A DNA stretch of 64,000 nt from Muribaculaceae bacterium. Lineage in GTDB: Bacteria > Bacteroidota > Bacteroidia > Bacteroidales > Muribaculaceae. Shown piece by piece: positions 2,962 through 62,893 of the stretch; within the stretch, counting starts at the first letter, position 1; each line of letters opens with the position of its first letter. Under the pieces are notes generated by a model. It made no database searches, was not told the DNA's origin, and worked only from the letters and a program-made list of their open reading frames with translations. The position numbers and the translations under genes were made by a program. The stretch lies in NCBI GenBank assembly GCA_017427945.1, contig JAFRRT010000024.1, forward strand, positions 56,002 through 120,001, given 5' to 3'.

Positions 2962-3015
2962 AAGAATTGATAACGTAATAAACAATTCTAAAATAATTAA
3001 TTAAGTAGGTTAGAT

Positions 3016-3858
3016 ATGCCATCCATCAAACTTACAGAAGAGCAATTACAAGAGTTACTGTCTTCACGATTAGTTAATTGCGACAGTTTTGTAAACACAT
3101 TATACAAGTATATGCCAGTAGGTCGTGTACTTGAACTTTTAGAGCATAAACGCCATAAAATAGGATTCGTTTCACCCGAAAAATGGCAAGACCCATATGA
3201 AATTAAATATCTAAATACAGATTTTACCGCATTTAACGGTTATAAACAACCCCAAATATTTTGCTTTTGTGCGAGAAAAGACAATCTTAATGAAGAAGCA
3301 TCATGGAAAATATATAAGAAAGAAAACGAACCGTTATTACGATTAGAGATTAATACTCTTCGTTTTCTACTGAGTATTATGAATTTTGCAAAGAGTAATA
3401 AATGCGATATATTCTTTTCTCGAGTTGATTATAGGTTGAAAAAAGAAGAAATAGATAATTTATACCTTCCTTCAAGTCCTTATTATCCTGAATATTTTAA
3501 TGATTTCGATGACAAAAAATACGTGAAAACGATGTCGATAAAAAGAAAAGCATTTGAATATGAGAATGAATATCGGATTTTTATTATTCCAAGAGATATG
3601 GAAAAAGTAAAGCGGTATATGAGAAAAGGCGTCTTATTAGTTCCCATTGACATCAATGCAATTATTAATTTTACTTATTATCCTTTAGAAAGAATTGATG
3701 ATAGTTTAATGGCTCAAATTAAAAAAGCTAAATATGATGCGGAATGCGATATCATCAGAAAACGTATAGAGGCTTCTTATCCTAACCCGCCGGACTCACT
3801 CTTTATCAGGTCAACACTATACTCTGATGTAGATATAATTGAAAAAGTCGAAGTATGA
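3016..3858 (+). CDS. DUF2971 family protein embedded in the hsd locus
   Basis: This 280-residue protein resembles DUF2971. It has the early LYKYMPV segment, a WQDPYE element at the place where the family usually has FNDPFE, FCFCARKDN, a WKIY segment and a late ENEYRIFI motif. The biochemical role of the family is not established, and members often sit near restriction or toxin-like genes. The gene is strongly AT-rich compared with hsdM. Its TGA stop overlaps the ATG of hsdS (ATGA at 3855-3858), which suggests translational coupling. An unrelated gene between hsdM and hsdS is unusual and suggests an accessory defence or regulatory role, but that is inference. A second DUF2971 gene lies at 62115-62891. 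Confidence 0.75.
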   Translation: MPSIKLTEEQLQELLSSRLVNCDSFVNTLYKYMPVGRVLELLEHKRHKIGFVSPEKWQDPYEIKYLNTDFTAFNGYKQPQIFCFCARKDNLNEEASWKIYKKENEPLLRLEINTLRFLLSIMNFAKSNKCDIFFSRVDYRLKKEEIDNLYLPSSPYYPEYFNDFDDKKYVKTMSIKRKAFEYENEYRIFIIPRDMEKVKRYMRKGVLLVPIDINAIINFTYYPLERIDDSLMAQIKKAKYDAECDIIRKRIEASYPNPPDSLFIRSTLYSDVDIIEKVEV

Positions 3859-4943
3859 CAAAGGGGTGTTTAGGAGAACATATCAGGGAAGTGAATGTCC
3901 GTAACCGTGATTTAACGGTGGCGCGGCTTGTCGGTCTCACGATAGACAAAGCTTTCATCCCTTCGGTAGCAAATGTCATCGGAACTGACCTCTCGAATTA
4001 TAAGGTAATTCGTCGTGAACAGTTCGCTTGCAGTCTCATGCAGGTAAGTCGTGATGGAAAAATACCTGTTGCCATGTTTGAGGAAGACGAGGCCATTATG
4101 TCGCCAGCATATCCGATGTTTGAGGTCATCGATACTTCGGTACTGATGCCCCAATATTTAATGATGTGGTTTTCTCGCAGCGAATTTGACCGTGAAGCAA
4201 GCTATTATGCTGTTGGTGGTGTTAGAGGCAGTTTGACTTGGGATGATTTCTGTAATATGCGGTTGCCGGTGCCGTCAATTGAGCGCCAGCGCGAAATCGT
4301 CGCCGAATACAAGACCCTGACCCGCCGCATACGCCTCAACCAACAAATCATCCAAAAACTCGAAGACACAGCCCAAGCCCTCTACCGAAACACCTTCATC
4401 GACAACATCGACAAACAAAACCTCCCCCCCGGCTGGCACCTCGCCACAATAGGGGAATTTTGTGATATCATTACAGGCAAAAAAGATGTAAATGAGTCAC
4501 TTAGTGAAGGGAAATTTAGGTTTTTTTCCTGTTCTCCAGATGCATACTTTTCAAATGAGTATATTGCAAAAGGCCCTGCTGTGTTGATAGCAGGGAATGG
4601 GTCTTATACGGGAAGGGTCACTTACTATGATAAGGAATTCGATCTATATCAACGAACTTATGCATGTATTCCTAAAAATACCAACATAGAATTAACCGCA
4701 TTTTTATATTGCATTCTTAGATTTGAATTCCAAGGACAATTTATGGGTGGATCAAGAGGGTCTTCAATACCGTATATCGTAAGAGGAGATATTGCCGATT
4801 TTGAATTTGTGTATAATGAGAACCGTTGTCTACTGTTTTCAAATGTAGCACAAAAGATTCTATCATATGCGCAAGTAAAAATTGCAGAAAACGAGAAACT
4901 AACCGAATTACAGTCTTTGCTCCTAGCAAAGATGGGTCAATAA
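3855..4943 (+). CDS. hsdS: Type I restriction specificity subunit HsdS
   Basis: HsdS recognises the two halves of the target site and positions the methyltransferase and nuclease subunits. The 362 residues show a first target recognition domain (about 1-140), a central conserved helical spacer beginning at PVPSIERQREIV (about 140-190), a second recognition domain (about 195-325) and a C-terminal conserved helix ending LTELQSLLLAKMGQ. The gene is a compositional mosaic: the central helix, about 4260-4440, is GC-rich, while the second recognition domain after 4450 is very AT-rich. This fits exchange of recognition domains by recombination. The last 50 or so bases recur at 6281-6334. The start overlaps the stop of the upstream DUF2971 gene by four bases. 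Confidence 0.93.
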   Translation: MTKGCLGEHIREVNVRNRDLTVARLVGLTIDKAFIPSVANVIGTDLSNYKVIRREQFACSLMQVSRDGKIPVAMFEEDEAIMSPAYPMFEVIDTSVLMPQYLMMWFSRSEFDREASYYAVGGVRGSLTWDDFCNMRLPVPSIERQREIVAEYKTLTRRIRLNQQIIQKLEDTAQALYRNTFIDNIDKQNLPPGWHLATIGEFCDIITGKKDVNESLSEGKFRFFSCSPDAYFSNEYIAKGPAVLIAGNGSYTGRVTYYDKEFDLYQRTYACIPKNTNIELTAFLYCILRFEFQGQFMGGSRGSSIPYIVRGDIADFEFVYNENRCLLFSNVAQKILSYAQVKIAENEKLTELQSLLLAKMGQ

Positions 4944-4944
4944 A
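4891..4944 (+). repeat. hsdS 3'-end direct repeat, copy 1
   Basis: This segment, from CGAGAAACTAACCGAATTAC to the stop codon, encodes the conserved C-terminal helix of HsdS (KLTELQSLLLAKMGQ). It matches 6281-6334 with about three substitutions and one single-base indel. The two copies bracket the metallo-hydrolase gene. Confidence 0.85.
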
Positions 4945-4957
4945 AAACCACAGAACT

Positions 4958-6271
4958 ATGAGCACAAGATTTACAGCATTAGAAATAGGTTCAGGCGATG
5001 CCTTTTTATTAGAAGATGAGGGCAAAACAATTCTTTTTGATTCTGGTGGCAGTAAGAATAGAATAAAAGATTTGTTAAAAGATAAAGGCATTACAAGAAT
5101 TGATATAGCGATCTGCTCCCATAATGACGGAGACCATGCAAATGGTTTTATAGGGTTATTAAAATCATATCAATTCATTATTGATGAAATATGGCTTCCT
5201 TATTGGTGGGCCAGCATACTACAATATGCAAATGAGCATGGCATCAACTGGGCAGAGGTCGAGATGACCTCTCATGAAATCAACGATAAAAAAGACTATA
5301 ATTCCAAGTTACTGTATTCAGATGAACATGAGCCAATATCTGACGAGGTTTTTGGTGAAGTGTTGTCAAACCTTGCAGAACGTATGGATAATAAGGACAT
5401 GTCACTATCTTCTGATAGATTATTTTACGATATTGCTTATGAAACAGCAAGAAATATGATTGATCGTTTAGCTTATGATACAAAACATAACATAGATATT
5501 CTTCATGATCCTAATTTAGCCGATATAATAGCCTGTGATATTGCTTATCATTTTGTTCAATATATATCTAATAGAGCTCATCGTGATGAAGTCAAAGATT
5601 TTTTTTACGGTCATATAGATGAATTCTTGCCACCTAATTCATTCGATCACCTTGTGACAGCTTACAGTGGCAGTAATATAAGGATAATGTTTAACAATAT
5701 AATGGAAATAGCAGTATGGGCTTATCAACGTGGTTGTAAAATCAAATGGTTTGAGCCGACTAAAAGTTTTACAAGAATTCCTATACCAAACTCTAATTTT
5801 ATAGCCTTGAATTCAACCTTAAAACGTCAAGTTAAAAAACTCAAAGATTTATCGGCTTTTGCCTACGCTTTGTATTTGACAGTTGAAAATGAGTACTCAT
5901 TGGTATTCGAATATTGCAAAGGTAATATCCCAATCATACGATTCTCTGCAGATTCAGATTGCGAATTTCCTGGTCCTCAATCTTCGTATGAACATGAAAT
6001 CATTGTGACCGCTCCTCACCATGGATCTGAAGCAAACGCAAATGTTTATGACGCTATTGATCCTAAAAATCAGGATAATATAATATGGATAAGAAGTGAT
6101 GCCCTGAACAAAACTCAAGGACGGCCGTGTAGTGATTTTAAGTTAAGGAAAAATAAATACTGCCTTACCTGCAAAAATCGCATCCGAAACAAAAAAATAG
6201 AGGTTTGCTTTGAATACGACATCTTAATCCGACAATGGAAGTCAATTAGTGGATATCAGTGCATTCGTTAA
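4958..6271 (+). CDS. ComEC-like metallo-beta-lactamase-fold hydrolase in the hsd locus
   Basis: This is a 437-residue protein of the metallo-beta-lactamase superfamily. The N-terminus has LEIGSGDAFLLEDEGKTILF and DSGG. The metal-binding motif SHNDGDH is near residue 48, and a later IVTAPHHGSEAN segment is typical of the C-terminal half of ComEC/Rec2-type soluble MBL proteins. The 250-residue stretch between these landmarks, rich in D, E, H and Y, is longer than in simple ComEC-like enzymes. I chose the ATG at 4958 because an in-frame upstream extension would run into the end of hsdS and the MBL fold begins at MSTRFTALEIG. The protein probably acts in the cytoplasm on a phosphodiester, but the substrate cannot be inferred. 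It sits between two copies of the hsdS tail and looks like an inserted defence cargo gene. Confidence 0.8.
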   Translation: MSTRFTALEIGSGDAFLLEDEGKTILFDSGGSKNRIKDLLKDKGITRIDIAICSHNDGDHANGFIGLLKSYQFIIDEIWLPYWWASILQYANEHGINWAEVEMTSHEINDKKDYNSKLLYSDEHEPISDEVFGEVLSNLAERMDNKDMSLSSDRLFYDIAYETARNMIDRLAYDTKHNIDILHDPNLADIIACDIAYHFVQYISNRAHRDEVKDFFYGHIDEFLPPNSFDHLVTAYSGSNIRIMFNNIMEIAVWAYQRGCKIKWFEPTKSFTRIPIPNSNFIALNSTLKRQVKKLKDLSAFAYALYLTVENEYSLVFEYCKGNIPIIRFSADSDCEFPGPQSSYEHEIIVTAPHHGSEANANVYDAIDPKNQDNIIWIRSDALNKTQGRPCSDFKLRKNKYCLTCKNRIRNKKIEVCFEYDILIRQWKSISGYQCIR

Positions 6272-6280
6272 CAGAATAAC

Positions 6281-6334
6281 CGAGAAACTAGCCGAATTAC
6301 AATCTTTGCTCCTAGCAAAGATGGGACAAATAAA
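6281..6334 (+). pseudogene. Remnant of an hsdS 3' end (direct repeat, copy 2)
   Basis: These bases would encode EKLAELQSLLLAKMGQ, which is the C-terminus of the intact hsdS at 4891-4943, with no HsdS body in front. The copy does not share the stop codon of the intact gene because of an extra A after the last Gln codon. It is either the scar of a second hsdS that has been lost or the product of a duplication that delivered the metallo-hydrolase gene. Confidence 0.75.
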
Positions 6335-6346
6335 TATAAAAATAAT

Positions 6347-7264
6347 ATGGAATGGTTAAAGAGTTTTAGCGATAGTGCACAAACGGCAATTATAGCAGGT
6401 ATAATAAGTGCGGTAGTAAGTATCACTATGTTTATTCTAAAAGGATGTTGGGACTGGTTCCAAGAGAAATACATGTTAAGATATAAATTGAAAAAGGAGT
6501 ACACCTTTAATCAACGAATGCATATTAAAGAAAGTCTTGCAAAGAGCAAAACTCCTTTAATTCAGGCATCTGAAGAACTTAATAGTAGATTAAAGAATTT
6601 TTCAAAGAATATTGATAAAAATTGGCATGATATTTCTGAAGACATGTGGACCAAACCGGATGCGTACTATTTGGTGTCTTTCGTATATCGTTTACTTGCA
6701 TTTTTCTATTGGCTAGAAAAAGCTGAGAGCGATATCTATAGTTTTGATTTCTCCGTGGCAGCGAAGGAGGAAAAAGTATATTTAAAATATGTTCAGTCAT
6801 TACGAAATTTTTTCTACGATTGTGATTTGCTTAACCCAGAGTTCGGTATCGAATATTTTGAGAAAGATTATCCATTTTTCAAAAATTTCATAAATAAATA
6901 TGTTAGTTACATGAAAAACCAAGATGGCAGCTTAATCTCCTATGAACAATTTGAGAAAAAGATAGCAGAGAATCATGAAATGATAAAGCCTGTGTTCGGG
7001 TATATTTCAAAGATTCGAAAAGAACGTTCAAATCAGAATTACAATATTATTATATCTTTTCATCTATTTTTAATGTTGTTTCTAAATAAATATGGCTTAG
7101 ATTACCACTATACAAGACGGGAAAAATTTAGAAAATTAATTACTGATCGCTATAACGATTTGAGAATTAAAAAAGGGCTAATGAACTTCTTTGAACGAAA
7201 TAAAATTGTAGATGAAGTAGAATGGATTATAACAGATTTATCACTAAGAGATAATAGTAATTAA
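6347..7264 (+). CDS. Membrane-anchored protein of unknown function in the hsd locus
   Basis: I do not recognise a family for this 305-residue protein. One hydrophobic segment (AIIAGIISAVVSITMFIL, about residues 15-32) should anchor it in the inner membrane. The rest is a hydrophilic, mostly helical, Lys/Glu/Tyr/Phe-rich cytosolic region. The gene is strongly AT-rich and starts just after the hsdS tail remnant, between the metallo-hydrolase and AbiH genes. Single-pass proteins with a long cytosolic helical domain are common as effectors or sensors of anti-phage systems, so it may be the partner of the metallo-hydrolase upstream. That is inference from position only. Confidence 0.6.
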   Translation: MEWLKSFSDSAQTAIIAGIISAVVSITMFILKGCWDWFQEKYMLRYKLKKEYTFNQRMHIKESLAKSKTPLIQASEELNSRLKNFSKNIDKNWHDISEDMWTKPDAYYLVSFVYRLLAFFYWLEKAESDIYSFDFSVAAKEEKVYLKYVQSLRNFFYDCDLLNPEFGIEYFEKDYPFFKNFINKYVSYMKNQDGSLISYEQFEKKIAENHEMIKPVFGYISKIRKERSNQNYNIIISFHLFLMLFLNKYGLDYHYTRREKFRKLITDRYNDLRIKKGLMNFFERNKIVDEVEWIITDLSLRDNSN

Positions 7265-7307
7265 TTATATTTGTTTTGAGGCAATAGCACAAATATCCAG
7301 CATCGAA

Positions 7308-7339
7308 TTGGATAATTAACAGAATTTTGTGTACATTTG
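7308..7339 (+). promoter_or_regulatory. Bacteroidetes-type promoter for abiH-hsdR
   Basis: TTG at 7308-7310 and TACATTTG at 7332-7339 match the -33 and -7 elements with 21 bases between them. The site lies in the 156-base gap before the AbiH gene, so AbiH and HsdR may be expressed separately from hsdM/hsdS. Confidence 0.55.
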
Positions 7340-7420
7340 CATCTGACTTCTATTAATAAAAAACATCAACCAGTCCCACTCTCTGTCATTGGCAATGTGT
7401 GGGCACATAATAGTTAAATT

Positions 7421-8407
7421 ATGAATGTATTATATATTTTGGGGAATGGCTTCGACTTGGCCATGGGTTTGAAGACAAGTTATCCAGACTTTTATAAGTA
7501 TCTTGAGACATTCACTGGGTCTGAACTCTTGGAGAGAATGAAGGATGAAATAAAAGCAGACAAAAAGAACTGGTCTGATATGGAAGAAGCTTTCGGGAAA
7601 TACACTCTCAATCTTAAGTCACAAAATGAACTTGGAGGTCTGTATAAAGATTTAAATCTTTGTCTACAAGATTATTTGATGTTACAGCAGAAACATTTTA
7701 ATCCAACTTATGACCAAAAAAAATCATTCAACAATGAGTTTTCATCTCCTGTGGACTCTTTTATAGAAGGAACTGATATTCAGAAATTTAACAGCATGGT
7801 TTTAGAAAACCGGTATTGTCATTTTAATGTTGTATCTTTCAATTATACTGATACTCTTGAAAAACTGCTAGATTACGATGAAAATAAAAGGCCGAAGGCA
7901 ACGTTAAAAAGTGGCACTATGGGTAGCATCGTTCATGTTCATGGTGTTCTCGGAGATTCAATAATATTTGGAGTGGATAACACAAGACAAATAGCAAATA
8001 CATCATTCAAGCAAAATAGAGATGCTACTGATCTTTTAATAAAGAAGAACTCCATTGAAGTTTTGAAATCACAAGATTATGAGAATTTTGAAAAACTTAT
8101 AACGGAAGCAAATTTGATTATACTATATGGCGTCTCTCTTGGTTTAACAGATAAAAGTTGGTGGAAAAGAATCAAAGAGGAGCTATTGAATAGAGAAGAC
8201 CTTAGATTAGTCGTACATATCTTTTCGCCTAATAGTGATCATCGCACAAAACAATTTGCGGGGCATGATGAGCGAGATTTTGAAAGACTCTTTGTGGAAC
8301 GATCCGGATTACGATTAAAAAAACTTCCCGAAGGACTTAAAGACAAAGTTATTTTTACCGTTAACTCAAAAGCGTTTAAATTAAAACCCCAAAATAGTCG
8401 ATATTAG
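7421..8407 (+). CDS. AbiH-family abortive infection protein
   Basis: The N-terminus MNVLYILGNGFDLAMGLKTS, followed by YPDFYKYL, is the hallmark of the AbiH family, which includes a lactococcal phage abortive infection protein. NFxD-type features follow: FNVVSFNYTDTLE near residue 145, and VHVHGVLGDSIIFGVD near 180, where the HGxxxD pattern resembles the SIR2-like fold often reported for these proteins. The 328 residues are near the family's usual length. The enzymatic activity of AbiH is not firmly known. The gene lies directly upstream of hsdR (six-base gap) and is AT-rich, so it is probably defence cargo cotranscribed with the restriction subunit. Confidence 0.85.
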   Translation: MNVLYILGNGFDLAMGLKTSYPDFYKYLETFTGSELLERMKDEIKADKKNWSDMEEAFGKYTLNLKSQNELGGLYKDLNLCLQDYLMLQQKHFNPTYDQKKSFNNEFSSPVDSFIEGTDIQKFNSMVLENRYCHFNVVSFNYTDTLEKLLDYDENKRPKATLKSGTMGSIVHVHGVLGDSIIFGVDNTRQIANTSFKQNRDATDLLIKKNSIEVLKSQDYENFEKLITEANLIILYGVSLGLTDKSWWKRIKEELLNREDLRLVVHIFSPNSDHRTKQFAGHDERDFERLFVERSGLRLKKLPEGLKDKVIFTVNSKAFKLKPQNSRY

Positions 8408-19864: not shown

Positions 19865-19927
19865 AAAAAACACTGCTGAAATCAGATTTATTACTAAAAA
19901 AAAGTACTATTGAACTGAAATAATAGC

Positions 19928-19942
19928 TATCTTTGCAAAGAT
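19928..19942 (+). promoter_or_regulatory. Promoter -7 element with overlapping palindrome ahead of the ABC importer operon
   Basis: TATCTTTG at 19928-19935 matches the -7 consensus and overlaps the perfect 14-base palindrome ATCTTTGCAAAGAT (19929-19942). No well-spaced -33 element is visible. The operon start codon is at 19956. The palindrome could bind a regulator that blocks transcription. Confidence 0.5.
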
Positions 19943-19955
19943 AAGCTTCTGGGAA

Positions 19956-20702
19956 ATGGATTTGCTAGCATCACATATCAAAAAAGCCTTTGGGGATAAC
20001 AGTGTTCTGACAGATGTATCTCTGACGCTCACTGCTGGAAAAGTCTCTGTTTTGATGGGAACGAATGGTGCAGGCAAAACCACCTTGCTGAATATCTTGT
20101 CTGGTTTTATGAAGCCGGATGGCGGCTCCATAAAACTTGATGGCAAGGAAATCTTAAGCATTCGGCCAAGTACCATTGCCAATTTGGGTATTAGGAGGAC
20201 TTTCCAAGACATGAGACTGATAGGCGAAATGACAGTACTTGAAAATGTCCTGTTGGCTTTCCCTGGTCAAGTGGGAGAAAAGTGGTGGAAAGCCTTGCTT
20301 CCATTGCCTAAAATTGCTGCCGAGCAGAAAGCAAATACAGATAAGGCAAAACTCATTTTGGAACAGTGCTTCATCGATGATATCATGGCGAATAGAGCCA
20401 AGGATATTTCTTACGGCCAGCAAAAGCTCTTGAATCTGGCATGTTGCCTTGCTGGTGATTCGTTGGTATGGTTACTTGATGAGCCGGTAGCTGGGGTAAA
20501 TTCAGCAAACCGTGAGAAGTTGACTCATGTTATTCAAGATCAAAAGGCTTCGGGAAAGTCAATTTTGATTATTGAACACAATAGCGATTTTATCGAGAGT
20601 GTAGCTGATGAAATCTTGTTTTTGAATAAAGGCGTTATCAGCAATTACCCGTCTTATAATGCGTTTCGAAATGACATGTCAGTAAAAAATGCCTACGTAT
20701 GA
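19956..20702 (+). CDS. HAAT-type ABC transporter ATPase, LivG-like
   Basis: First gene of a six-gene operon for a branched-chain amino acid/urea-like (HAAT) ABC importer. This 248-residue ATPase has Walker A GTNGAGKT (35-42), the Q-loop region RRTFQDMRL, the LivG-type signature SYGQQKLLNLA (starting about 152) in place of LSGGQ, and Walker B VWLLDEPVAGV. The SYGQQ form and the RTFQ segment match LivG/UrtD ATPases rather than export ATPases. The stop overlaps the next gene's ATG by four bases. Complete HAAT importers are not common in Bacteroidales, which suggests acquisition by transfer. Confidence 0.9.
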   Translation: MDLLASHIKKAFGDNSVLTDVSLTLTAGKVSVLMGTNGAGKTTLLNILSGFMKPDGGSIKLDGKEILSIRPSTIANLGIRRTFQDMRLIGEMTVLENVLLAFPGQVGEKWWKALLPLPKIAAEQKANTDKAKLILEQCFIDDIMANRAKDISYGQQKLLNLACCLAGDSLVWLLDEPVAGVNSANREKLTHVIQDQKASGKSILIIEHNSDFIESVADEILFLNKGVISNYPSYNAFRNDMSVKNAYV

Positions 20703-21403
20703 GTATCCTGAACATTCAAAATATCAATACTGGTTATGGCAAGAAGCAGGTGCTTCATGATGTGACATTGGAGGTCAAGACGGGAAGCGCATTATTGTTG
20801 GTGGGCTCAAATGGTTCAGGAAAGAGCACGTTACTGAAGGCCATATACGGTTTGTTGGCTCTTTGGGGAGGTTCAATTGAATATGAGGATTCATTGCTCC
20901 AAAGCAAGAGCTTCAAGACACCAACCTATCGCTTGATACAAAGGGGACTAATGTATGTACCTCAAAAGGATGCGCTCTTTGATGACATGACGGTGGAAGA
21001 GAATATTCGTGCTGCAATGTTGCATCAAACCAACAAAAAGGAATCACGGCAAAAAGTGCTTCAAGTGTTGGAGCTGATGCCCGAGCTGAATGGGCGTAAA
21101 AACCAGTTGGCTAATAGGCTAAGCGGAGGAGAACGCAAACTATTGTCTCTGGCGATGGTTGTGGCCAACGAACCCAAGTTACTCCTATATGACGAGCCTC
21201 TTGCAGGAATCTGCGAAGAGAATGTACCAATGGTGATGCATTGGCTTCAAATAATACGCGAAAAAGGCACAACTATGCTCATCGTGGAACATCGCATCAA
21301 AGAATTGATTAACTTTGCAGATACAATAGTCGGCTTGAAATTGGGCCAACTCCATACTGAGAATTTAACCACATTAGATAGCATTAAATCGTTTATGATA
21401 TGA
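20699..21403 (+). CDS. HAAT-type ABC transporter ATPase, LivF-like
   Basis: The second ATPase of the importer has 234 residues, with Walker A GSNGSGKST (about 36-44), a canonical signature LSGGERKLLSLA, and Walker B LLLYDEPLAGI followed by the switch histidine in IVEHRI. LivF proteins pair with LivG to drive the LivHM permease, which is what the gene order indicates. ATGA overlaps join it to both neighbours (20699-20702 and 21400-21403), so expression is translationally coupled. Confidence 0.9.
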   Translation: MSILNIQNINTGYGKKQVLHDVTLEVKTGSALLLVGSNGSGKSTLLKAIYGLLALWGGSIEYEDSLLQSKSFKTPTYRLIQRGLMYVPQKDALFDDMTVEENIRAAMLHQTNKKESRQKVLQVLELMPELNGRKNQLANRLSGGERKLLSLAMVVANEPKLLLYDEPLAGICEENVPMVMHWLQIIREKGTTMLIVEHRIKELINFADTIVGLKLGQLHTENLTTLDSIKSFMI

Positions 21404-22527
21404 ATAAGAAATCAATTATCTGGGCAGTTCTTGCCATCGCTGTGTTAGTAGGTATCATGTGTTGGCATAAATACCAACCATCTGCAAATAACAACTCTGA
21501 AACTGTAAAAATAGGTGTTTTGTTACCGTTGACGGGAGCGGGAGATATCTATGGTAAAGATTTAAAGAGTGGAATCGATCTTGCCTATCAAGAGTCGCCA
21601 ATTAAAGATAGAATTCAACTCGTGTATGAGGATGATGCTACTGATGTCACAAAAGGCATTAATGCATTTAATAGTCTGATATTTAAAGATGTTGATATAG
21701 TGATAGGTGGCATCATGAGTAATGTTGCAAGTGGAATTCTTCCGATTGCAAATAAAAATCATGTGTTACTCTTTTCCCCAAAAGCGACTGCTGTTGACTT
21801 GAGTAAGGAAAATGATTATTTCTTTAGAATATGGCCAACAGATGATTTGGATGGCAAGTATTCAGCTGCATATGTCGTTGATAATCTGAATCTAAAGCGT
21901 ATAGCTATTTTATATGATGATGGCACCTATGGCGTTGGTATCAGGAATGAATTCAAGAAATATCTGAATGGCAAAGACGTTGAAGTCGTTTTTGATGAAG
22001 GTTATTCAAGTGGCCAAACGAATTTCAGAACTCAAATATCAAAAATTAAAAGCAGTAAGCCAGATGTGCTCTTTTTGCCTGCCTATTACAAAGAAGCGGT
22101 GCTGATTTTAAAACAGTTAAATGAGAATAATTGTGATTTCTATATTTCGGGTGTTAGCAGTTTCCTTGAATCCGAAGTAAAACAGGCTGCAGGTAAACTT
22201 ACAAATAAAGTGTTCTTTACATATCCATTGTATTCAGTGGATAGCAGTAATCCATCAACAGAGTATTTTAATGTACAATATGATGCCGCATATAAAGATA
22301 GAAAACCTAATGCTTTTTCAGCACATGGTTATGATTCGTTTAAGGTGCTTGAACGAGTTATTATGAGTCTTGAGAAAGAGAATAAAGAAGTAAATGCTAC
22401 CAATATGAAAACTGCATTGGAGGCGATGGATGTCTATCATGGTGCAACTGGAGATTTGCGTTTCGATAAAAATGGTGATGCAGATAAAGGCCTGCAGATT
22501 CTGTGGCTAAAAGAAGTTAATCTTTAA
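21400..22527 (+). CDS. Membrane-anchored LivJ/K-like periplasmic binding protein
   Basis: This 375-residue protein is a type I periplasmic binding protein of the receptor-ligand-binding (LivJ/K, UrtA) family. It has an N-terminal hydrophobic segment (IIWAVLAIAVLVGIMCW), then KIGVLLPLTGAGDIYGKDL, the ligand-site regions VIGGIMSNVASGILPIAN and FRIWPTDDLDGKYSA, DGTYGVGIRNEF, and a C-terminal YHGATGDLRFDKNGD. These are standard for the family. The cysteine after the hydrophobic segment is not in a lipobox, so the protein is probably held by an uncleaved N-terminal helix. Ligand identity cannot be read from the sequence. The gene is much more AT-rich than the ATPase genes before it. Confidence 0.88.
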   Translation: MNKKSIIWAVLAIAVLVGIMCWHKYQPSANNNSETVKIGVLLPLTGAGDIYGKDLKSGIDLAYQESPIKDRIQLVYEDDATDVTKGINAFNSLIFKDVDIVIGGIMSNVASGILPIANKNHVLLFSPKATAVDLSKENDYFFRIWPTDDLDGKYSAAYVVDNLNLKRIAILYDDGTYGVGIRNEFKKYLNGKDVEVVFDEGYSSGQTNFRTQISKIKSSKPDVLFLPAYYKEAVLILKQLNENNCDFYISGVSSFLESEVKQAAGKLTNKVFFTYPLYSVDSSNPSTEYFNVQYDAAYKDRKPNAFSAHGYDSFKVLERVIMSLEKENKEVNATNMKTALEAMDVYHGATGDLRFDKNGDADKGLQILWLKEVNL

Positions 22528-22539
22528 ATTGATATAGGT

Positions 22540-24729
22540 ATGGGTGATAAAGAGAAAATGATCAAGGATAATATACTCTCGTTTATTAAATCCATTGATT
22601 GGGTAGCGACAGCAGTTGCAGTAATCATAACGATTATTATTTCAATCTTATGGAATGTTTCTTTTAACTATTTTAACAGTTTTTGGAATACTGTAATAAC
22701 AGCTTTTTTGAAATATATTTTGACGTTCATCTTACTTGTGATAATAGTACATCAACCTAGATTCTTAATAAAAAAAATAGGGAAGATAATTCAAGACAAT
22801 GATAATTATTTAAAGAAAATAGACAAGTGTCCACGAATGACGGCATTTTATACTGATGGTAATTTTTTAAAGGATAAAATAGATTCGATGGCTCATTTAG
22901 AACCGAATCAACGCTGGCAGTTTTCAATGTTCATCACACAATTACTGACGAATCAATTTAAAGACTTTTCAATAAAAATCAAAATTATTGATTATTCTGG
23001 TTTTTCTAAAGAAATCATGAAGGAATGCAAATCATCAGTCTATTTGACAGGATCAATGAGGCCATCCTCTTGGCTAAATGCATTAGCAGATAATAATAAG
23101 AATGACGTAAAGTATAAATTCTTTAATAATCTCCTGCCCTCTGATCAGCAATTTCCAATCAATGAGAATAATCACTCTGTATATATAAATAAATGTCAAA
23201 CATTAGAGAGATTGAGGGTTGTCTGCTTGACACCAGAAGACATGAATTTTCTTTTTATTTCTGAGAATAGCGTACATGAATATTTTAGAATAAATAGTAC
23301 AAAAGGTGGAATAAAAACATATTTCACGGAATGGGAAAGCCATGCTGGAAAGATGGATGAAGATGCTCTGATGAATGTAAGATTTCCATTTAATAGCAAT
23401 GATATGCAACCCTTAGTATATGAATATGCGCTTTATGATGGTGCCTTGTTGTTTAAGTTTAAAAAAGTAAATAAAATTTGGGGTGAGCTAACAGTGATAA
23501 ATGGAAAGTGGCCACATGAGTCTGAATCAAATAAGAAAGAATTCAAGGCAGTACAAGATTTTTTTAATTATTTTAAAGACAATACAAACTCTTCCAAAAA
23601 AGACTACATGAGCATTATTAGTGATGTTCAGAAGAACAAAATTGATATGTTGAAGATGATAATTAATAATAGAATCCTTCCACATAAGTATTCTTACTTA
23701 TACAGTGGGGCTGATAAATGGGATGAGTTTATAAAAAAGGGAGGTACAAGGTACGGTAATCGTTCAACTTTAGCGATAGTTGAGTTTCTTAATCATTTTT
23801 TTAAAAGTGACACAAACCTCGACATCGTTGAAATAGGAGCTGGTAATGGTAACCGTATTGCTGCTGTATGTGACGCACTAGGAACAGACGATATAAAACA
23901 GTATAGATTAGTTGATATTAGCAATCAATTGTTAGAAGAGTCCCTACAACTTCTATTGAATCGATTAGGAAAAGACAAAATTGTTGAACCTTTGCTTTTA
24001 GATTGTTGCTCTAGTGAAAAACATGAAGAACTAGAAGAGACTATAAATAATAAAACTGTTCTTATTTTAAGTAATAGCACACTATTTACTGAAGTTGAGT
24101 TCAATTGGGAGTCATTCAAGGCTGCACACCAAATATTTATTTCATTAGATTTGTATGATGATAATAATAGTACATATTCGGATTTATCTAAAGCTGTTTC
24201 ACTTTTTCTGTTTCCATTAAAGGTTTTTGAAATCCCAATAATAGATGAACTGATTGAACCACTAAGTAACTATCTATTTCAACAAAAATACGATACAGAT
24301 AAGAATTGTTTTAATATTTATTTCAATCTCAAGATATATTTGGAAATATTGAGAGGGAAAACAAGCAATGATAAAGCTGTCTCTAGTTCTGAAATTGCAG
24401 AAAAAATGACTTCTGACATTGAGGAAAGAAAGAATATTTCCAAAATCATTGATTCTGTATGGAATGCTAGTAATTTGTTGAAAACAACTGATTTATTATA
24501 TAATGCTCCAGTCGAATTACAATCAAGAGATTATATTTCTTTAAGAAAGAAACTATTAGATATAGATAAGTTGACAGTTTTGTCTTGTTTGAAATTTAAG
24601 AAAGAAAAGGAAGATGCTCATATAATTAGATCGATTAGAACGTTTTTCGAAAAGAAGGGTTTTAATGCAAATGTAAAGGTGGCAAAAGATAGGGATTTTG
24701 TGGGTGTCAAATTAACGAAGAGAACTTGA
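22540..24729 (+). CDS. Membrane-anchored protein with SAM-dependent methyltransferase domain inside the ABC importer operon
   Basis: I know no described family with this architecture. The 729 residues begin with two transmembrane segments (about 20-40 and 48-70). A middle region of about 340 residues follows, with no motif I recognise. Next comes a class I methyltransferase fold with motif I IVEIGAGNGNR at 429-439 and the acidic motif II end YRLVDIS with Asp459. ILSNSTLF further on resembles the motif region of EgtD-like (Methyltransf_33) enzymes. About 130 more helical residues end the protein. Topology suggests that the catalytic part is cytoplasmic. It lies 12 bases after the binding protein and 20 bases before the LivH-like permease, so it is built into the importer operon. 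It might modify the imported compound, but that is inference. The gene is strongly AT-rich. Confidence 0.7.
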   Translation: MGDKEKMIKDNILSFIKSIDWVATAVAVIITIIISILWNVSFNYFNSFWNTVITAFLKYILTFILLVIIVHQPRFLIKKIGKIIQDNDNYLKKIDKCPRMTAFYTDGNFLKDKIDSMAHLEPNQRWQFSMFITQLLTNQFKDFSIKIKIIDYSGFSKEIMKECKSSVYLTGSMRPSSWLNALADNNKNDVKYKFFNNLLPSDQQFPINENNHSVYINKCQTLERLRVVCLTPEDMNFLFISENSVHEYFRINSTKGGIKTYFTEWESHAGKMDEDALMNVRFPFNSNDMQPLVYEYALYDGALLFKFKKVNKIWGELTVINGKWPHESESNKKEFKAVQDFFNYFKDNTNSSKKDYMSIISDVQKNKIDMLKMIINNRILPHKYSYLYSGADKWDEFIKKGGTRYGNRSTLAIVEFLNHFFKSDTNLDIVEIGAGNGNRIAAVCDALGTDDIKQYRLVDISNQLLEESLQLLLNRLGKDKIVEPLLLDCCSSEKHEELEETINNKTVLILSNSTLFTEVEFNWESFKAAHQIFISLDLYDDNNSTYSDLSKAVSLFLFPLKVFEIPIIDELIEPLSNYLFQQKYDTDKNCFNIYFNLKIYLEILRGKTSNDKAVSSSEIAEKMTSDIEERKNISKIIDSVWNASNLLKTTDLLYNAPVELQSRDYISLRKKLLDIDKLTVLSCLKFKKEKEDAHIIRSIRTFFEKKGFNANVKVAKDRDFVGVKLTKRT

Positions 24730-24749
24730 GCATTGAGTGAAGTGTATAT

Positions 24750-25631
24750 ATGGCTATTATGCAGTCTTTTTTAGAAATATTGTACTGTCAAGCGATTTTG
24801 TTGATTATATCATTGGGTTTCTCAATGATATATTCAACATTGCGCTTTATTAATTTTTCACATGCGATTTTTCTTACGCTAACAGCTTATCTTGTATATA
24901 GCGGTTCAGTTTTATGCCATTTGCCCTTAGGTGTGTCAGCGCCACTTGCATTAGTATCAAGTGTGATACTGTCATTAATTATCAATAGGCTTGTTTATAT
25001 GCCTTTAATAAAACGAAGAAATGAAAGTTGGCAGTTAATGATTGTATCATTGGGAGTGTATGTCGTTATGCATAATGTGGTGTCTCTTATTTGGGGGGAC
25101 GGTGCACTTAGTTTTCGCACATGGGAGGTAAAGACTGGGCATGAGTTCTTTGGGGCATATATCACTAATGTGCAAATCATTACGTTCGTCATAAGTGTTG
25201 TTCTGTTTGCGTTGGTTTGGTTTTTTCGGGAGAAAACCATTATCGGGAATCAGATCAAGGCGGTGTCATCGAATGATGTATTAAGCGGTATTTTGGGTTT
25301 GAACAAGAACCGAGCAATCATGTGGAGTGTAGCCATCGGAACAGGTTTGGCGGCTGTTGCTGGAATTCTCATTGCTGCTGATACAGACATGACACCGACT
25401 ATGGGTTTTAATTGGTTACTTTATGCCGTGGTGGCTATGATCATTGGCGGCATGGGGAAGATGAGGTACCTTGTGTTTGGGTCATTGTTGCTTGCAACAG
25501 CCCAGCATTTGGCCGCCTATTATTTTGACAGCAAGTGGATGAATGCCACGGCATATATCATCCTCATTGTTTTCCTGTTTTTCCGTCCAACGGGCTTCAG
25601 TGGTAAGCAACTTAAAAAGAGTAGTGTTTAG
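24750..25631 (+). CDS. HAAT-type ABC transporter permease, LivH-like
   Basis: This 293-residue permease of the branched-chain amino acid type has about eight hydrophobic helices and typical LivH features: LGFSMIYSTLRFINFSHA in helix 1-2 (LivH proteins have GLNLIFGTLRVINFAHG-like sequence), a LIVSLGVYVVMHN segment, and the cytoplasmic ATPase-contact loop QIKAVSSNDVLSGILGLNKNRAIM. It is separated from the methyltransferase gene by 20 bases and from LivM by two bases. Composition shifts from AT-rich at the 5' end to moderate at the 3' end. Confidence 0.9.
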   Translation: MAIMQSFLEILYCQAILLIISLGFSMIYSTLRFINFSHAIFLTLTAYLVYSGSVLCHLPLGVSAPLALVSSVILSLIINRLVYMPLIKRRNESWQLMIVSLGVYVVMHNVVSLIWGDGALSFRTWEVKTGHEFFGAYITNVQIITFVISVVLFALVWFFREKTIIGNQIKAVSSNDVLSGILGLNKNRAIMWSVAIGTGLAAVAGILIAADTDMTPTMGFNWLLYAVVAMIIGGMGKMRYLVFGSLLLATAQHLAAYYFDSKWMNATAYIILIVFLFFRPTGFSGKQLKKSSV

Positions 25632-25633
25632 TC

Positions 25634-26506
25634 ATGGAATATCTGCTACATCTTGCCATATTGATTTGCATCTATACGATTCTTTCTCAATCATTGAGTT
25701 TGGTGGCTGGCTATAGTGGCCAGATGTCACTGGCTCATGCAGGTTTTTATGGCATAGGAGCATATATAGCTGCATTATTGTCAGTGAACCTTAGTCTGCC
25801 ACCTGTTCATAATTTGTTTGCAGCGATGATACTATCTGGTGCTATTGCTTATGTGGTGGCTAAGGTAGCCGTGCGTACAATTGATGATTATTTCATCATT
25901 ATCACCTTGGGTATCCAGGTGGTGATTTATTCTATCATGAATAATTGGCAAACTGTGACCAATGGTCCGTTGGGTATTGCTGGAATTCCTTCATTCTCAG
26001 TCTTTGGATTTGAGTTTGATGATAAAGTCTCATTTTTGCTGCTTGCTGTGCTTTTGACCGTGTTTGTCTGGTTTGTTCTGTCGAATCTCATGAAATCACC
26101 ATTTGGAAGGATTTTGCGTGCATTGAGCGAGGACGAGGTTTATACAAAAAGCCTAGGTAAAGATGTGGCACAAGCAAAGGTGGTTTCTTTTGTTATCAGT
26201 GGTATGCTTGCATCAATTGCGGGCGTGCTGTATGCCCACTATATCAGTTATATCGATCCATCAAGTTTCACAATTGAGGAGTCTATCTTTATCTTGAGCA
26301 TCGTGATTATCGGTGGCATGCGCAACCTACTGCATATCTTTTATGCCGCCGCTTTCTTGGTACTTCTTCCCGAGGTGTTCCGTTTTGTGGGGATGCCTTC
26401 ATCTGTTGCTGCCAATATGCGCCAGATTTTCTACGGCGTAGCACTTATCTTGGTGATTTATCGCAGTGGTGCGATGAAATTGAAAAAAGAAAGCTCTATA
26501 GGTTAG
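25634..26506 (+). CDS. HAAT-type ABC transporter permease, LivM-like
   Basis: The second permease subunit has 290 residues and about eight helices, with LVAGYSGQMSLAHAGFYGIGAY, the diagnostic LivM N-terminal sequence. The ATPase-coupling loop is SPFGRILRALSEDEVYTKSLGKD, and a DPSSFTIEESIFILSIVIIGG segment follows near the end. It is the last gene of the importer operon. The next gene, sufB, has its own promoter and an inverted repeat in the 121-base gap. Confidence 0.9.
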   Translation: MEYLLHLAILICIYTILSQSLSLVAGYSGQMSLAHAGFYGIGAYIAALLSVNLSLPPVHNLFAAMILSGAIAYVVAKVAVRTIDDYFIIITLGIQVVIYSIMNNWQTVTNGPLGIAGIPSFSVFGFEFDDKVSFLLLAVLLTVFVWFVLSNLMKSPFGRILRALSEDEVYTKSLGKDVAQAKVVSFVISGMLASIAGVLYAHYISYIDPSSFTIEESIFILSIVIIGGMRNLLHIFYAAAFLVLLPEVFRFVGMPSSVAANMRQIFYGVALILVIYRSGAMKLKKESSIG

Positions 26507-26542
26507 TTATAAGTGTTTTTCTGTTTTTTTTGTTGCAGCTGG

Positions 26543-26564
26543 GCAAAGAAATGAATTTCTTTGC
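26543..26564. promoter_or_regulatory. Perfect inverted repeat over the -33 element of the suf promoter, possible operator
   Basis: GCAAAGAAAT (26543-26552) and ATTTCTTTGC (26555-26564) are perfect 10-base arms with a two-base spacer. No T-run follows, so a terminator is unlikely. The right arm contains the TTTG used as the -33 element of the suf promoter, which is where a repressor would act. Confidence 0.5.
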
Positions 26565-26593
26565 GCTCGGCTTGCGCAAAAGTTGTATCTTTG
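26560..26593 (+). promoter_or_regulatory. Promoter of the sufBCDS operon
   Basis: TATCTTTG at 26586-26593 is a perfect -7 element. TTTG at 26560-26563 is a -33 candidate at the slightly long gap of 22 bases. The sufB start codon is 35 bases further on. Confidence 0.6.
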
Positions 26594-26627
26594 TCGGTTC
26601 AAACCTTATGGTTAACTCATTTGACCG

Positions 26628-58684: not shown

Positions 58685-59209
58685 TTAAAATTGTCCGTCC
58701 CACCATTTTGGACGAGGCAAAATATTTGAATGATCTCGATTATTAATTTTCCCAGGTATTCTATCACGATAACCAATACTTATTATTCTTAAATCATACC
58801 ATGGTGTATATTGATTCTTTTGACTTACGTTGCATTTTGGCTTCACCTCTTGGATAAGAGCACTTTCAATTGTTAGAAGCAATCGGTTGAAATGATAATG
58901 CTTCATATAATTGATGGGTGAAACGATTCTTCCAAAACGCACCTTAAACTCACCACGTTCTGCATAAAAAGGACAATTTGAATCATTTAGAGAGTGACTT
59001 AATACACGTTTGGATATCTTGCCTATTGATTTGCCGATATAAATTGGAGTAGAAGAATCGCCTGATTTAGCATGAATAGTTCTTGTAATATAATACAATC
59101 CTCCATCCCAATCTTTATTATACTTATCAACATTATTCCATGCAATTGGACGACTCCAATTGATTGTGATTTGATGAAGGTATTCAGGAGAATAAAGATT
59201 ATCGTTCAT
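58685..59209 (-). CDS. GIY-YIG nuclease-like protein
   Basis: This 174-residue protein has the GIY-YIG pattern: GGLYYITRTI, PIYIGKSIGKISKRVLSH and a later SALIQEVKPKCNVSQK with the glutamate expected for metal binding. It is a stand-alone domain without extra DNA-binding modules that I recognise. The gene is strongly AT-rich, and nothing nearby explains its presence, so acquisition from a phage or mobile element is possible. Confidence 0.68.
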   Translation of the reverse strand: MNDNLYSPEYLHQITINWSRPIAWNNVDKYNKDWDGGLYYITRTIHAKSGDSSTPIYIGKSIGKISKRVLSHSLNDSNCPFYAERGEFKVRFGRIVSPINYMKHYHFNRLLLTIESALIQEVKPKCNVSQKNQYTPWYDLRIISIGYRDRIPGKINNRDHSNILPRPKWWDGQF

Positions 59210-59687
59210 ACTTGACTATTTTTGATTTTTATAAGTAATAGTTTCTTACTTGCCGATGCAGGAAATAAGGGTTGTTGATACTCAATGAGTTAACACTTAA
59301 ACGGTAGAAATACGGTAAAACGGGGGTTTAACCGAAAAATCCAATCCGAAAAATTCACATTTTAACATAATTAACACTTTTTAGCCAACGTGTAGCATTA
59401 TCAGCTGCAAATATACGGAAAATTATTTGAAGTAAGCGGTTTTACATCCCTATTTTACACTATAACTTATGATTAGCACTTTCTTTTGCAGAAGTGCGAA
59501 AAGATATTGCTGTGAATTTCTTGGGATGTGATACATTATTGTGTCCTCACGAATACGCTGTTTTGTTCCAAATTCTACCTTGAATTGTTAAAAATGCCTT
59601 GTAAAGCGAATATTTTTCACTCTAACCTAACATAAAATAGAGAAAAAACACTAACTTTGCACTCGTAATAAATAATTATATCCTTAT
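59210..59687. other. AT-rich gene-free region upstream of hipB
   Basis: These 478 bases hold no credible reading frame. They contain one TGTAGC word at 59391-59396 and, at 59652-59659, the perfect -7 element TAACTTTG 28 bases before the hipB start. No good -33 element or operator palindrome is seen. Confidence 0.65.
59652..59659 (+). promoter_or_regulatory. -7 element of the hipBA promoter
   Basis: TAACTTTG is a perfect TAnnTTTG match; the hipB-like start codon is at 59688. No -33 match at the usual distance. Confidence 0.5.
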
Positions 59688-60008
59688 ATGAGTAAAACAA
59701 CAATGGGTAATAAACTGCCCCGAAAACTGGAACAGAAGATGCAGACGGTTGGCGAGCAAATCAGGCTTGCCAGATTGCGTCGTGATCTTAGTGTTGCACA
59801 GGTGGCTGAACGTGCAACCTGTTCACCTATGACCATTGCCCGGATAGAGAAAGGTGCGCCGACTGTTGCTATCGGTATCTATTTGCGTGTACTCTATGCC
59901 TTGCAGCTCGATGATGACATCCTGCTGCTGGCACAGAAGGATGAGATGGGGCGGGCCTTGCAGGATCTTGCCCTCAAACACCGTGAACGGGCATCAAAAA
60001 AAGTATAG
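59688..60008 (+). CDS. HipB-like XRE-family antitoxin
   Basis: This 106-residue protein has a helix-turn-helix of the XRE type: GEQIRLARLRRDLSVAQVAERATCSPMTIARIEKG. It is followed by a short helical tail. It precedes the HipA-like kinase by three bases. In HipBA modules the antitoxin represses the operon and neutralises the kinase. An in-frame ATG also occurs at 59703; both starts leave the HTH intact, and I keep the first because it is closest to the promoter. Confidence 0.85.
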   Translation: MSKTTMGNKLPRKLEQKMQTVGEQIRLARLRRDLSVAQVAERATCSPMTIARIEKGAPTVAIGIYLRVLYALQLDDDILLLAQKDEMGRALQDLALKHRERASKKV

Positions 60009-60011
60009 CCT

Positions 60012-61268
60012 ATGCGTACATTATTTATATATGCTGACTTCGACTGGCTTGAAACACCAATGCTTGTTGGCGAACTGGGCTATGAATCCCTTCGTGGCTC
60101 GGATTCCTATTCGTTCAAGTATGATAACGAATGGCTCCGTCAGTATGGCGGTCTTTTCCTGAGTGCCGACATCAACAACTATCCTGGTCAGCAATACACT
60201 CAGCCGGACAGGGACATCTTCGGATGCTTCAGCGACGCATTGCCCGACCGTTGGGGAAGGTTGTTGTTGAACAGACGCGAACAGATTCTTGCCACCGAAG
60301 AGAAACGTCCTATCCGTAAGCTTTCATCCTTCGATTACCTGATGGGTATCGATGATTTCTCCCGGATGGGCGGTTTCCGCTTCAAGGAGGATAAAGATGG
60401 TGAATTCATCAACTGTGAGAAATCGCTTCGTATTCCTCCTTTGACTGATATAAAAGCTTTGGTGGCAGCCAGTATGGAGATTGAGAAGAGCGAAGAACTG
60501 AATCAGCTTCCAGAGAAGAAATGGCTGTTGCAACTTGTTCATCCTGGCACTTCCTTGGGCGGTGCCCGTCCGAAAGCTGGTGTAATAGATGAAACGGGCA
60601 ATCTCTGTATAGCCAAGTTCCCATCGAGGAACGATGACTATGATGTCGGCCTTTGGGAGCATCACAGTCATCTGTTGGCGAAGGAAGCTGGAGTCGTGGC
60701 CGCTGAGACGAGTGTTATTGAGACAGGCGTGAAATACCATGCCCTGCTCTCAAAGCGTTTCGACAGAACAGCCGATGGTAAGAGAAAACATTTCGCTTCA
60801 GCCATGACCCTGCTGGGCTTGACTGATGGTTGCGATGTAAAGACAGGTAACGGCTACCTTGACATCGTGGACTTTATCCTCCAGAACTGCTGTGACGTGG
60901 AAGACAACCTTCGTCAGCTCTATCGCCGCGTGGCATTCAATATCGCCATCGGTAATAGCGATGACCATTTCCGTAACCACGGTTTCCTGCTCACTCCTCG
61001 TGGCTGGACGTTATCTCCAGCATACGACTTGAATCCGACAATCAATGAATACCAGGCATTGCTCATCAACTCCACAACCAATCATGCAGACTTGAATGTC
61101 CTGCTTGACTCATCAGAAGAATACATGATTGGCAAGGAAGAAGCAAAGCGAATCATCGATGAGGTAAAAGCTGGTGTGAAGCAATGGAAGTCGATTGCCA
61201 TCCGTCTTGGAATAGCCAAAAGGGAGATGGATGTGTATGAACAGGTTTATCAGCGTGCGCTTAAATGA
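60012..61268 (+). CDS. HipA-like serine/threonine kinase toxin
   Basis: This 418-residue HipA-family kinase has an N-terminal HipA_N part with LPDRWGRLLL, a P-loop-like GTSLGGARPKAGV, the lysine region CIAKFPSRNDDYDVGLWEHH, LLSKRFDR, the catalytic NIAIGNSDDHFRNHGFLL, and the metal-binding LSPAYDLNPT. In E. coli HipA phosphorylates glutamyl-tRNA synthetase and induces dormancy; targets of this branch may differ. It is paired with the HTH gene upstream, and composition is close to that of the core genome. Confidence 0.93.
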   Translation: MRTLFIYADFDWLETPMLVGELGYESLRGSDSYSFKYDNEWLRQYGGLFLSADINNYPGQQYTQPDRDIFGCFSDALPDRWGRLLLNRREQILATEEKRPIRKLSSFDYLMGIDDFSRMGGFRFKEDKDGEFINCEKSLRIPPLTDIKALVAASMEIEKSEELNQLPEKKWLLQLVHPGTSLGGARPKAGVIDETGNLCIAKFPSRNDDYDVGLWEHHSHLLAKEAGVVAAETSVIETGVKYHALLSKRFDRTADGKRKHFASAMTLLGLTDGCDVKTGNGYLDIVDFILQNCCDVEDNLRQLYRRVAFNIAIGNSDDHFRNHGFLLTPRGWTLSPAYDLNPTINEYQALLINSTTNHADLNVLLDSSEEYMIGKEEAKRIIDEVKAGVKQWKSIAIRLGIAKREMDVYEQVYQRALK

Positions 61269-62891: not shown

Positions 62892-62893
62892 AC

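Follow-up and report, generated by a model that had tools for sequence, protein, structure and literature searches.

Here we analysed a 64,000-nucleotide stretch of the genome of a Muribaculaceae bacterium (contig JAFRRT010000024.1, positions 56,002 to 120,001; hereafter the window), in which six genes in one direction, livG, livF, livJ, a 729-codon gene, livH and livM, form an operon for a complete LivFGHM-type importer. Our results support the notion that this operon is a modular importer of the HAAT type, in which LivG, LivF, LivH and LivM form a chassis and LivJ together with the protein encoded beside it, hereafter X, constitutes a specificity cassette exchanged as a whole, the two members of the pair sharing a small molecule; we give this reading a probability of about 0.58. 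Across related operons the chassis is conserved and X is variable, LivJ and X are inherited together, a cassette has been swapped at one chromosomal site, and the G+C content of the cassette is lower than that of the chassis. The link between LivJ and X most likely runs through a shared ligand, which would most likely be amino-acid-like; the chassis would import, and X would sit at the inner face of the membrane.

The related operons are mostly labelled Bacteroidota and neighbouring phyla, and the gene beside livJ is different nearly every time. Genome contigs with a LivM alignment were scanned, which gave 69 loci, and the complete ones mostly read LivG-LivF-LivJ-X-LivH-LivM or LivG-LivF-X-LivJ-LivH-LivM. 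A domain tally was made for the X protein of the window (P0001) and for 101 of the 102 X open reading frames (ORFs) of the other loci, one of L059 being left out. Among the matches listed, which represent 25 of 47 families, radical SAM (rSAM) domains occurred in 18 of the 102 slot proteins, B12 domains in 7, Methyltransf_33 (MT33) in 5 (P0001 included), the AlaRS-like tRNA-synt_2c and polyprenyl synthetase in 4 each, and aminotransferase and M28 peptidase in 2 each. Single or few cases were RelA_SpoT, thioesterase, HisRS-like, Glycos_transf_3, glyoxalase and P5CR-like proteins, as well as TIR, CAP12-type TIR, GGDEF and sigma-54-type AAA proteins. The sequence-only reading of this DNA had seen the special point of the operon in its methyltransferase companion. 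We reject this view because X changes from locus to locus: the methyltransferase is one occupant of a hypervariable slot and not the part that defines the family.

The usual slot holds a soluble enzyme and a second protein, often with predicted membrane helices, and at least one X protein with a predicted helix was present in 36 of 43 complete slots (this count, like that of the within-slot gaps below, includes both copies of the duplicated operons L040/L081 and L043/L071). A common fold of the membrane partners did not emerge from 171 profile comparisons, which gave one fair link outside P0001 itself, between the AlaRS partner and a 265-residue protein of L057 (probability 49, E 1.7e-4). By eye, a PLD-like region may be present both in these partners and in P0001. 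Stand-alone AlaRS-like catalytic cores of about 340-360 residues, with the class II motifs kept as judged by eye, were seen at L052 (6898-7908), L058, L086, L090 and L141. The L052 enzyme matches solved alanyl-tRNA synthetases in the PDB, and the MT33 enzyme of L051, which is a separate protein, matches the solved histidine N-alpha-methyltransferase 7scf (E 6e-4). Guest genes were also observed: a YhcG-type nuclease between LivF and LivJ (L089), an IS66 transposase (L083), and an integrase-type transposase that splits livJ (L064).

LivJ tracks X and the other importer genes do not, and LivJ and X can therefore be regarded as an exchangeable specificity cassette. The class test behind this statement used 44 of the 69 loci plus the window, L040 and L041 (47 in total), of which 38 fall into eight X classes and 9 are singletons; the classes were assigned from Pfam names and BLAST clusters of the X proteins, prior to the LivJ comparison. 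Left out were L081 (same operon as L040), L043 (same operon as L071), 17 loci that run off a contig end, are incomplete or interrupted, or have another gene order (L056, L062, L067, L072, L082, L083, L087, L093, L095, L099, L102-L107, L111), seven distant Liv operons with LivM 25-33% identical (L109, L110, L112-L116), and the loci of a second operon type described below; each component was counted only where its gene was long enough. The nearest LivJ neighbour by identity belonged to the same X class for 30 of 35 loci, compared with a shuffled mean of 4.5, and none of 2000 shuffles reached 30. The same count was near chance for LivG (2/28), LivF (0/31), LivH (7/36) and LivM (4/37), and after removal of the near-copies L059 and L094 it was 28/33 for LivJ, 0/27 for LivG, 0/31 for LivF, 4/34 for LivH and 2/35 for LivM. 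The trees, which are quick ones built without a mixture model and gave one long-branch warning (L057 with L076), require 10 changes of X class for LivJ (minimum 7; shuffled mean 24.1), 25 for LivM (24.4), 19 for LivG (20.1), 23 for LivF (21.3) and 22 for LivH (24.5).

Moreover, within classes the identity of the enzymes rises with that of LivJ (pooled r 0.86, 82 pairs), the corresponding values being 0.08 for LivG, 0.25 for LivF, and 0.29 for both LivH and LivM; these pooled coefficients carry no p-value, classes with fewer than five pairs per component are excluded, and L141, which is a near-copy of L052, is counted in the AlaRS set. By class, rho between enzyme and LivJ was 0.64 for B12-rSAM, 0.84 for AlaRS, 0.77 for SPASM and 0.49 for prenyl synthases, and three TM-rSAM pairs showed nothing special. 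Among 43 locus pairs with LivM at least 85% identical and no shared X class (unclassified X included), LivJ identity had a median of 27% and a maximum of 40%. The loci are not independent and the permutation counts are not exact probabilities; since many loci come from metagenome bins, organism labels may be wrong.

Several observations weigh against the cassette reading. The nearest LivJ neighbour lay outside the class in 5 of 35 cases (L040, L063, L066, L068, L078), and the classes are coarse, 3 of the 5 same-class pairs with LivM at least 85% identical having LivJs only 29-32% identical. None of MT33, B12-rSAM and SPASM forms a single clade in the LivJ tree (4, 4 and 3 changes), and the correlation between enzyme and LivJ is weak inside MT33 (rho 0.33). 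LivH has a slight trend of its own, with a within-class identity of 0.559 vs 0.535 that 87 of 2000 shuffles reach. LivJ and X are adjacent, so that physical linkage alone yields some co-inheritance. The chassis proteins of Porphyromonas are 87-97% identical across different LivJs, which is demanding for a single pair of permeases unless some part is common to the ligands. As for the membrane partners, the trend is modest: 7 of 43 slots have no helix-bearing X, and 112 of 334 control ORFs of at least 200 residues also have a helix. The prenyl synthase, RelA/SpoT, GGDEF, TIR and sigma-54-type AAA proteins among X appear unlike amino acid enzymes. Finally, the shared ligand is our inference.

The exchange itself can be followed in the genus Porphyromonas. 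The operons of P. crevioricanis (L051) and P. canoris (L052) occupy one and the same chromosomal site, where nine matched flanking ORFs are 72-95% identical (7 of them at least 89%). The two DNA sequences are 93.2% identical up to 19 bases into livJ and then unalignable, until the alignment resumes about 90 bases into livH at 92.4%, the first 90 or so bases of livH being part of the swapped segment. The cassette of L051 holds an EgtD-like enzyme and a small membrane protein, that of L052 an AlaRS-like enzyme and a larger membrane protein, and the two LivJs are 26% identical. In other surroundings, L141, from the genus group of L051, has a LivJ 92% and an AlaRS-like enzyme 93% identical to those of L052, with a membrane partner only 28% identical. 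P. loveana has a complete operon (L055) as well as LivM remnants, one of which lies next to a portion of the same flanking gene.

The position of the breakpoints, just inside livJ and livH, would also fit a hitchhiking model, in which the conserved livF and livH serve as homology arms and whatever lies between them is exchanged together, LivJ and X being linked by position only. The unrelated genes found in slots, namely the two transposases and the YhcG nuclease mentioned above and two DUF3990 proteins that were not traced to a locus, agree with such a model. We nevertheless consider it quite unlikely. Co-inheritance is still seen where LivJ identity has fallen to about 35-40%, and between loci with labels of different phyla (the window, L092 and L094), while the adjoining chassis is reassorted; between L141 and L052 the breakpoint even lies inside the cassette, yet LivJ and the enzyme were kept together.

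The cassette of the window illustrates the same association. Pfam places Methyltransf_33 on residues 376-508 of P0001 (26.8 bits vs a gathering cut-off of 23), aligned to profile positions 12-141 of 304 only, so that the substrate-binding half is not covered, and 19-residue hydropathy windows show hydrophobic stretches within residues 12-46 and 48-78. These results agree with the two-helix protein with a methyltransferase domain described from the sequence alone. Of the residues named then, Asp459 is in place, and motif I lies at 430-440, one residue off the former 429-439. The middle region had been described as a domain without recognisable motif; indeed, residues ~95-375, nearly 300 in number, have no Pfam match at E<=1, and NCBIfam gave there only a weak FxLYD match (102-133, 16.7 bits, under the cut-off of 23). 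P0001 as a single sequence had no match in the PDB at E<=10, and its family profile (A2) matched one solved methyltransferase, HvrF, across the motif I region (E 2e-4).

The sole full-length relatives found, at 21-24% identity, are a 705-residue protein of L092 (labelled Treponema) and two proteins of 712 and 775 residues of L094 (labelled Fibrimonadaceae). Each is encoded between livJ and livH of a Liv operon, and in L092 a shorter relative without the methyltransferase part comes next. A single chain carries both the membrane part and the methyltransferase in the window, L092 and L094, and the LivJ of the window clusters with the LivJs of exactly the latter two loci (SH-aLRT 99). The methyltransferase is thus a genuine part of the operon, as had been proposed. 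A full-length homologue was found in the own genome only among 61 genomes; 393 genomes of the order gave the own genome and two weak partial matches (one with two stops, one an EgtD-like protein), and 395 genomes of the phylum gave the own genome and four weak matches that cover parts of the profile. Plasmids and phages gave no match of P0001, nor did viral contigs scanned with one peptide pattern, and LivM was not found in viral contigs scanned with two. No full-length homologue without liv genes turned up in the genomes, plasmids, phages and viral contigs searched, and since the family is so rare, the co-occurrence of P0001 with liv genes depends on two other loci, both metagenome bins. Carriage by mobile elements was considered and rejected, for P0001 on these plasmid, phage and viral-contig searches and for LivM on the viral contigs.

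The layout of the operon (Table 1) is that of a tightly packed unit, with 4-base overlaps at livG/livF and livF/livJ and gaps of 12, 20 and 2 bases at the remaining junctions; the order of the six ORFs, their positions, the overlaps and the gaps of 2-20 bases all agree with the sequence-only reading, and Pfam agrees with the gene names. The HAAT (Liv/Urt-type) makeup is complete in one operon, with two BPD_transp_2 permeases, two ABC ATPases and a Peripla_BP_6 protein. Both ATPases carry Walker A, signature, Walker B and switch histidine, as read by eye from the translations. In LivJ a classical lipobox was not seen by eye, and an N-terminal hydrophobic stretch is present. LivM is the best conserved component, reaching 76-77% identity in named loci.

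Table 1. Genes of the window operon and the segment inserted with it (window coordinates)
Feature	Part	Position	Strand	Support	G+C
LivG-like ATPase	chassis	19956..20702	+	ABC_tran 3.6e-30	0.42
LivF-like ATPase	chassis	20699..21403	+	ABC_tran 1.7e-30	0.43
LivJ-like substrate-binding protein	cassette	21400..22527	+	Peripla_BP_6 1.4e-52	0.358
729-residue X protein P0001 (membrane hairpin, middle region, EgtD-like methyltransferase domain)	cassette	22540..24729	+	Methyltransf_33	0.303
LivH-like permease	chassis	24750..25631	+	BPD_transp_2 2.4e-32	
LivM-like permease	chassis	25634..26506	+	BPD_transp_2 6.1e-42	
Inserted segment, lying between the dockerin-like gene and sufB (ends approximate)		19865..26609	.	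dockerin-like gene adjoins sufB in L147, L148, L150, L153	

Family models give no firm ligand for the importer, since the best curated NCBIfam models, for branched-chain amino acids and urea, all stay below their cut-offs: 170.7 bits vs 362 for LivG, 149.7 vs 285.8 for LivF (UrtE), 129.3 vs 477 for LivJ, 116.7 vs 250.3 for LivH (UrtB) and 151.6 vs 366 for LivM (LivM). The closest solved matches of LivJ are branched-chain amino acid binding proteins, and residue conservation across the LivJ proteins did not single out a ligand.

Comparison with 13 same-genus loci indicates that the operon is an insertion between the dockerin-like gene and sufB. A homologue of the former directly precedes sufB in the four loci listed in Table 1 (65-79% DNA identity over the aligned pieces), an acyltransferase-like gene stands at that place in L154 and L155, and no operon sequence was found in the ~1.5 kb examined upstream of sufB in any of the 13. 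The G+C content is 0.41-0.43 for livG, livF, livH and livM, 0.36 for livJ and 0.30 for the methyltransferase gene, compared with 0.48 for the whole window. This gradient is general, as X lies below the chassis in all 42 loci compared and LivJ does so in 36 of 41. A LivM match was present in 17 of 384 genomes of the order (the own genome included), 5 of these at 60% identity or more; of the 26 genomes in the genus group of L051, 3 had one. The genomes of L080 (G821) and L066 (G822) have several such operons, with two close LivM copies each and more distant ones. Other low-G+C kilobases (0.31-0.42; down to 0.35) at 3001-8000 and 59001-64000 of the window may be further inserted islands. On the 3' side of livM in L040/L081, a Dam-like methylase, small phage-like genes and a tyrosine-recombinase-like ORF (by eye) suggest a mobile element.

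Such a patchy distribution, along with the LivM remnants of P. loveana, might recall an anti-phage or conflict system, with the importer chassis as sensor or delivery device and X as exchangeable effector. The hypervariability of X, the effector-like domains of some X proteins, and the membrane partner as the most divergent protein between close relatives (28% vs 92-93% for LivJ and enzyme) would fit this as well. A PADLOC scan of P0001 and 101 X proteins, of which 25 of 70 families are listed, included among the matches listed the defence candidate families PDC-M13A (2 members, best 4.9e-57), PDC-M10A (2, 1.5e-29), PDC-M51A (3, 9e-14) and mad2 (3, 7e-14), none of them traced to loci. However, pVip, which is a radical SAM family, was the commonest of the listed matches (9 members), and the single PDC-S02 member probably corresponds to the YhcG-type guest of L089. 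P0001 itself matched no PADLOC family at E<=0.001, the phage, plasmid and viral-contig searches described above gave neither P0001 nor, for viral contigs, LivM, and many X proteins are plain small-molecule enzymes. A role in conflict thus appears very improbable to us.

Under the cassette reading, LivJ would capture one particular small molecule, most likely amino-acid-like, and the LivGFHM chassis would import it. The enzyme X, anchored in the membrane through its own hairpin in the window and perhaps through a neighbour-encoded membrane protein in most other loci, would act on the molecule of LivJ, or make it; the X of the window would be an EgtD-like methyltransferase, possibly with a substrate that bears an amino group. 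LivJ is expected to lie outside the inner membrane and most X are predicted to be soluble, so that direct contact is an unlikely cause of their co-inheritance and a shared ligand is the simplest link. HAAT chassis are known for the transport of amino acids and amides. An amino-acid-like ligand is proposed because of this chassis family, the solved matches of LivJ, and the several X enzymes whose families act on amino acids or on compounds related to them (EgtD-like, AlaRS-like, HisRS-like, aminotransferase, P5CR-like, M28 peptidase). The sequence-only reading had suggested that P0001 might modify the cargo at the inner face or that the importer might be used as a sensor, and either may hold. 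Import followed by conversion and synthesis followed by sensing predict an identical genomic pattern. Partners of signalling type (RelA/SpoT, TIR, GGDEF), like the second operon type, lean towards sensing; the plain metabolic enzymes, and the fact that no exporter was recognised, lean towards conversion.

This second type has the order LivHMGFJ-enzyme(s)-large proteins and was found at L042, L044, L045, L133, L134 and L144, two of which (L133, L134) come from two genomes of the genus of the window (G006, G036). Its enzymes are rSAM/B12, prenyl synthase, methyltransferase, and a PLP enzyme with an SDR; its LivJs have their nearest core LivJs at ~21-35% identity, with the classes mixed. Several of the large proteins share an SRNxSHNxGSH-like motif (by eye). 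A kinase-like identity of these proteins was considered by eye only and is not confirmed by Pfam. In L132 and L095, from the same genome, LivF, LivJ and LivH are missing between LivG and LivM; in their place stand an 87-residue ORF (L095) and a 163-residue ORF that appears PIN/DUF3368-like by eye, and upstream lies a 1153-residue ORF with receiver-like and dikinase-like parts (by eye).

The operons could also be imagined as a signal system, in which a small-molecule signal is produced by the enzyme and taken back up through LivJ and the importer, and a partner responds inside, synthase and receptor being swapped in a pherotype-like manner. The partners meant are the membrane protein and the TIR, RelA/SpoT, GGDEF, AAA and HD-like (by eye) proteins and, in the second type, the kinase-like or receiver-like large proteins. 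Enzyme and receptor are indeed co-inherited and swapped as one block, the slots contain the signalling-type partners RelA_SpoT, GGDEF, sigma54 AAA, TIR and CAP12-type TIR, and the second type has the same kinds of enzymes beside large proteins with a GHKL-like N-box (by eye) and with one Response_reg match, below its cut-off, among them. There are also precedents: a passage in PMC4008528 describes ComQ as an isoprenyl transferase, encoded in the comQXPA locus with a histidine kinase and a response regulator, and distinct pherotypes of B. subtilis are reported in part of PMC4408185. On the other hand, neither an exporter nor a gene for a short precursor peptide was recognised, and of 113 within-slot gaps 104 are 60 bases or shorter (ORFs under 75 residues and the gaps to livF and livH are not counted). 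Moreover, the kinase reading was made by eye, 4 of 5 second-type large proteins scanned had no Pfam match at E<=0.01, and BLAST of ten second-type proteins found no relative beside core-type operons save the own locus of a query (L095). A signal system is conceivable, though on the unlikely side. Its broader form, an import-based family for cell-to-cell or environmental signalling, mainly in Bacteroidota and neighbouring phyla, with a swappable synthase-receptor pair on the LivFGHM chassis, an exchangeable output partner and many private signals, is offered as an unlikely and more speculative proposal.

The cassette reading can also be set against known systems. The operon resembles LivJ-LivFGHM and UrtABCDE in its two ATPases, two BPD_transp_2 permeases and one Peripla_BP_6 binding protein; it differs from them by the scores of its proteins under the curated cut-offs, by the built-in enzyme cassette, and by a LivJ that is exchanged with the enzyme. 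In E. coli, a single LivHMGF core serves both LivJ and LivK, so that a chassis with several binding proteins has a precedent. P0001 has the SAM-binding half of the domain in common with EgtD (histidine N-alpha-methyltransferase, Methyltransf_33) and, unlike EgtD, a membrane hairpin and the long middle region ahead of a domain aligned only in part. In com loci, a variable block of enzyme and receptor is flanked by conserved genes. Here, X and LivJ likewise co-vary between conserved flanks, their roles as synthase and receptor being putative, and some slots hold enzymes of the polyprenyl-synthetase type. In contrast to comQXPA and pherotype loci, the receptor is the binding protein of an ABC importer, the enzyme class itself changes, the operons are spread over phyla, and no precursor peptide gene was seen. 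In E. coli, as a passage in PMC9040844 describes, the amino acid importer CyuP is encoded next to CyuA, a cytosolic enzyme for the amino acid that is imported; this is one fixed pair, whereas here one chassis would serve many exchangeable pairs. We found no description of these operons in open-licence PMC papers searched by title and start of abstract, a scope that leaves aside preprints, and a description elsewhere is possible.

To conclude, our results present the importer as an exchange platform, on which a receptor and an enzyme travel together over a fixed transport core among loci labelled different phyla. Since the enzyme class can be predicted from the binding protein and vice versa, the cassettes provide a genomic key to ligands, and specific biochemical tests become possible for many uncharacterised enzymes, such as the stand-alone AlaRS-like, B12 radical SAM and EgtD-like proteins. 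If the signalling reading were true, these operons would represent a new type of bacterial communication or self-recognition.

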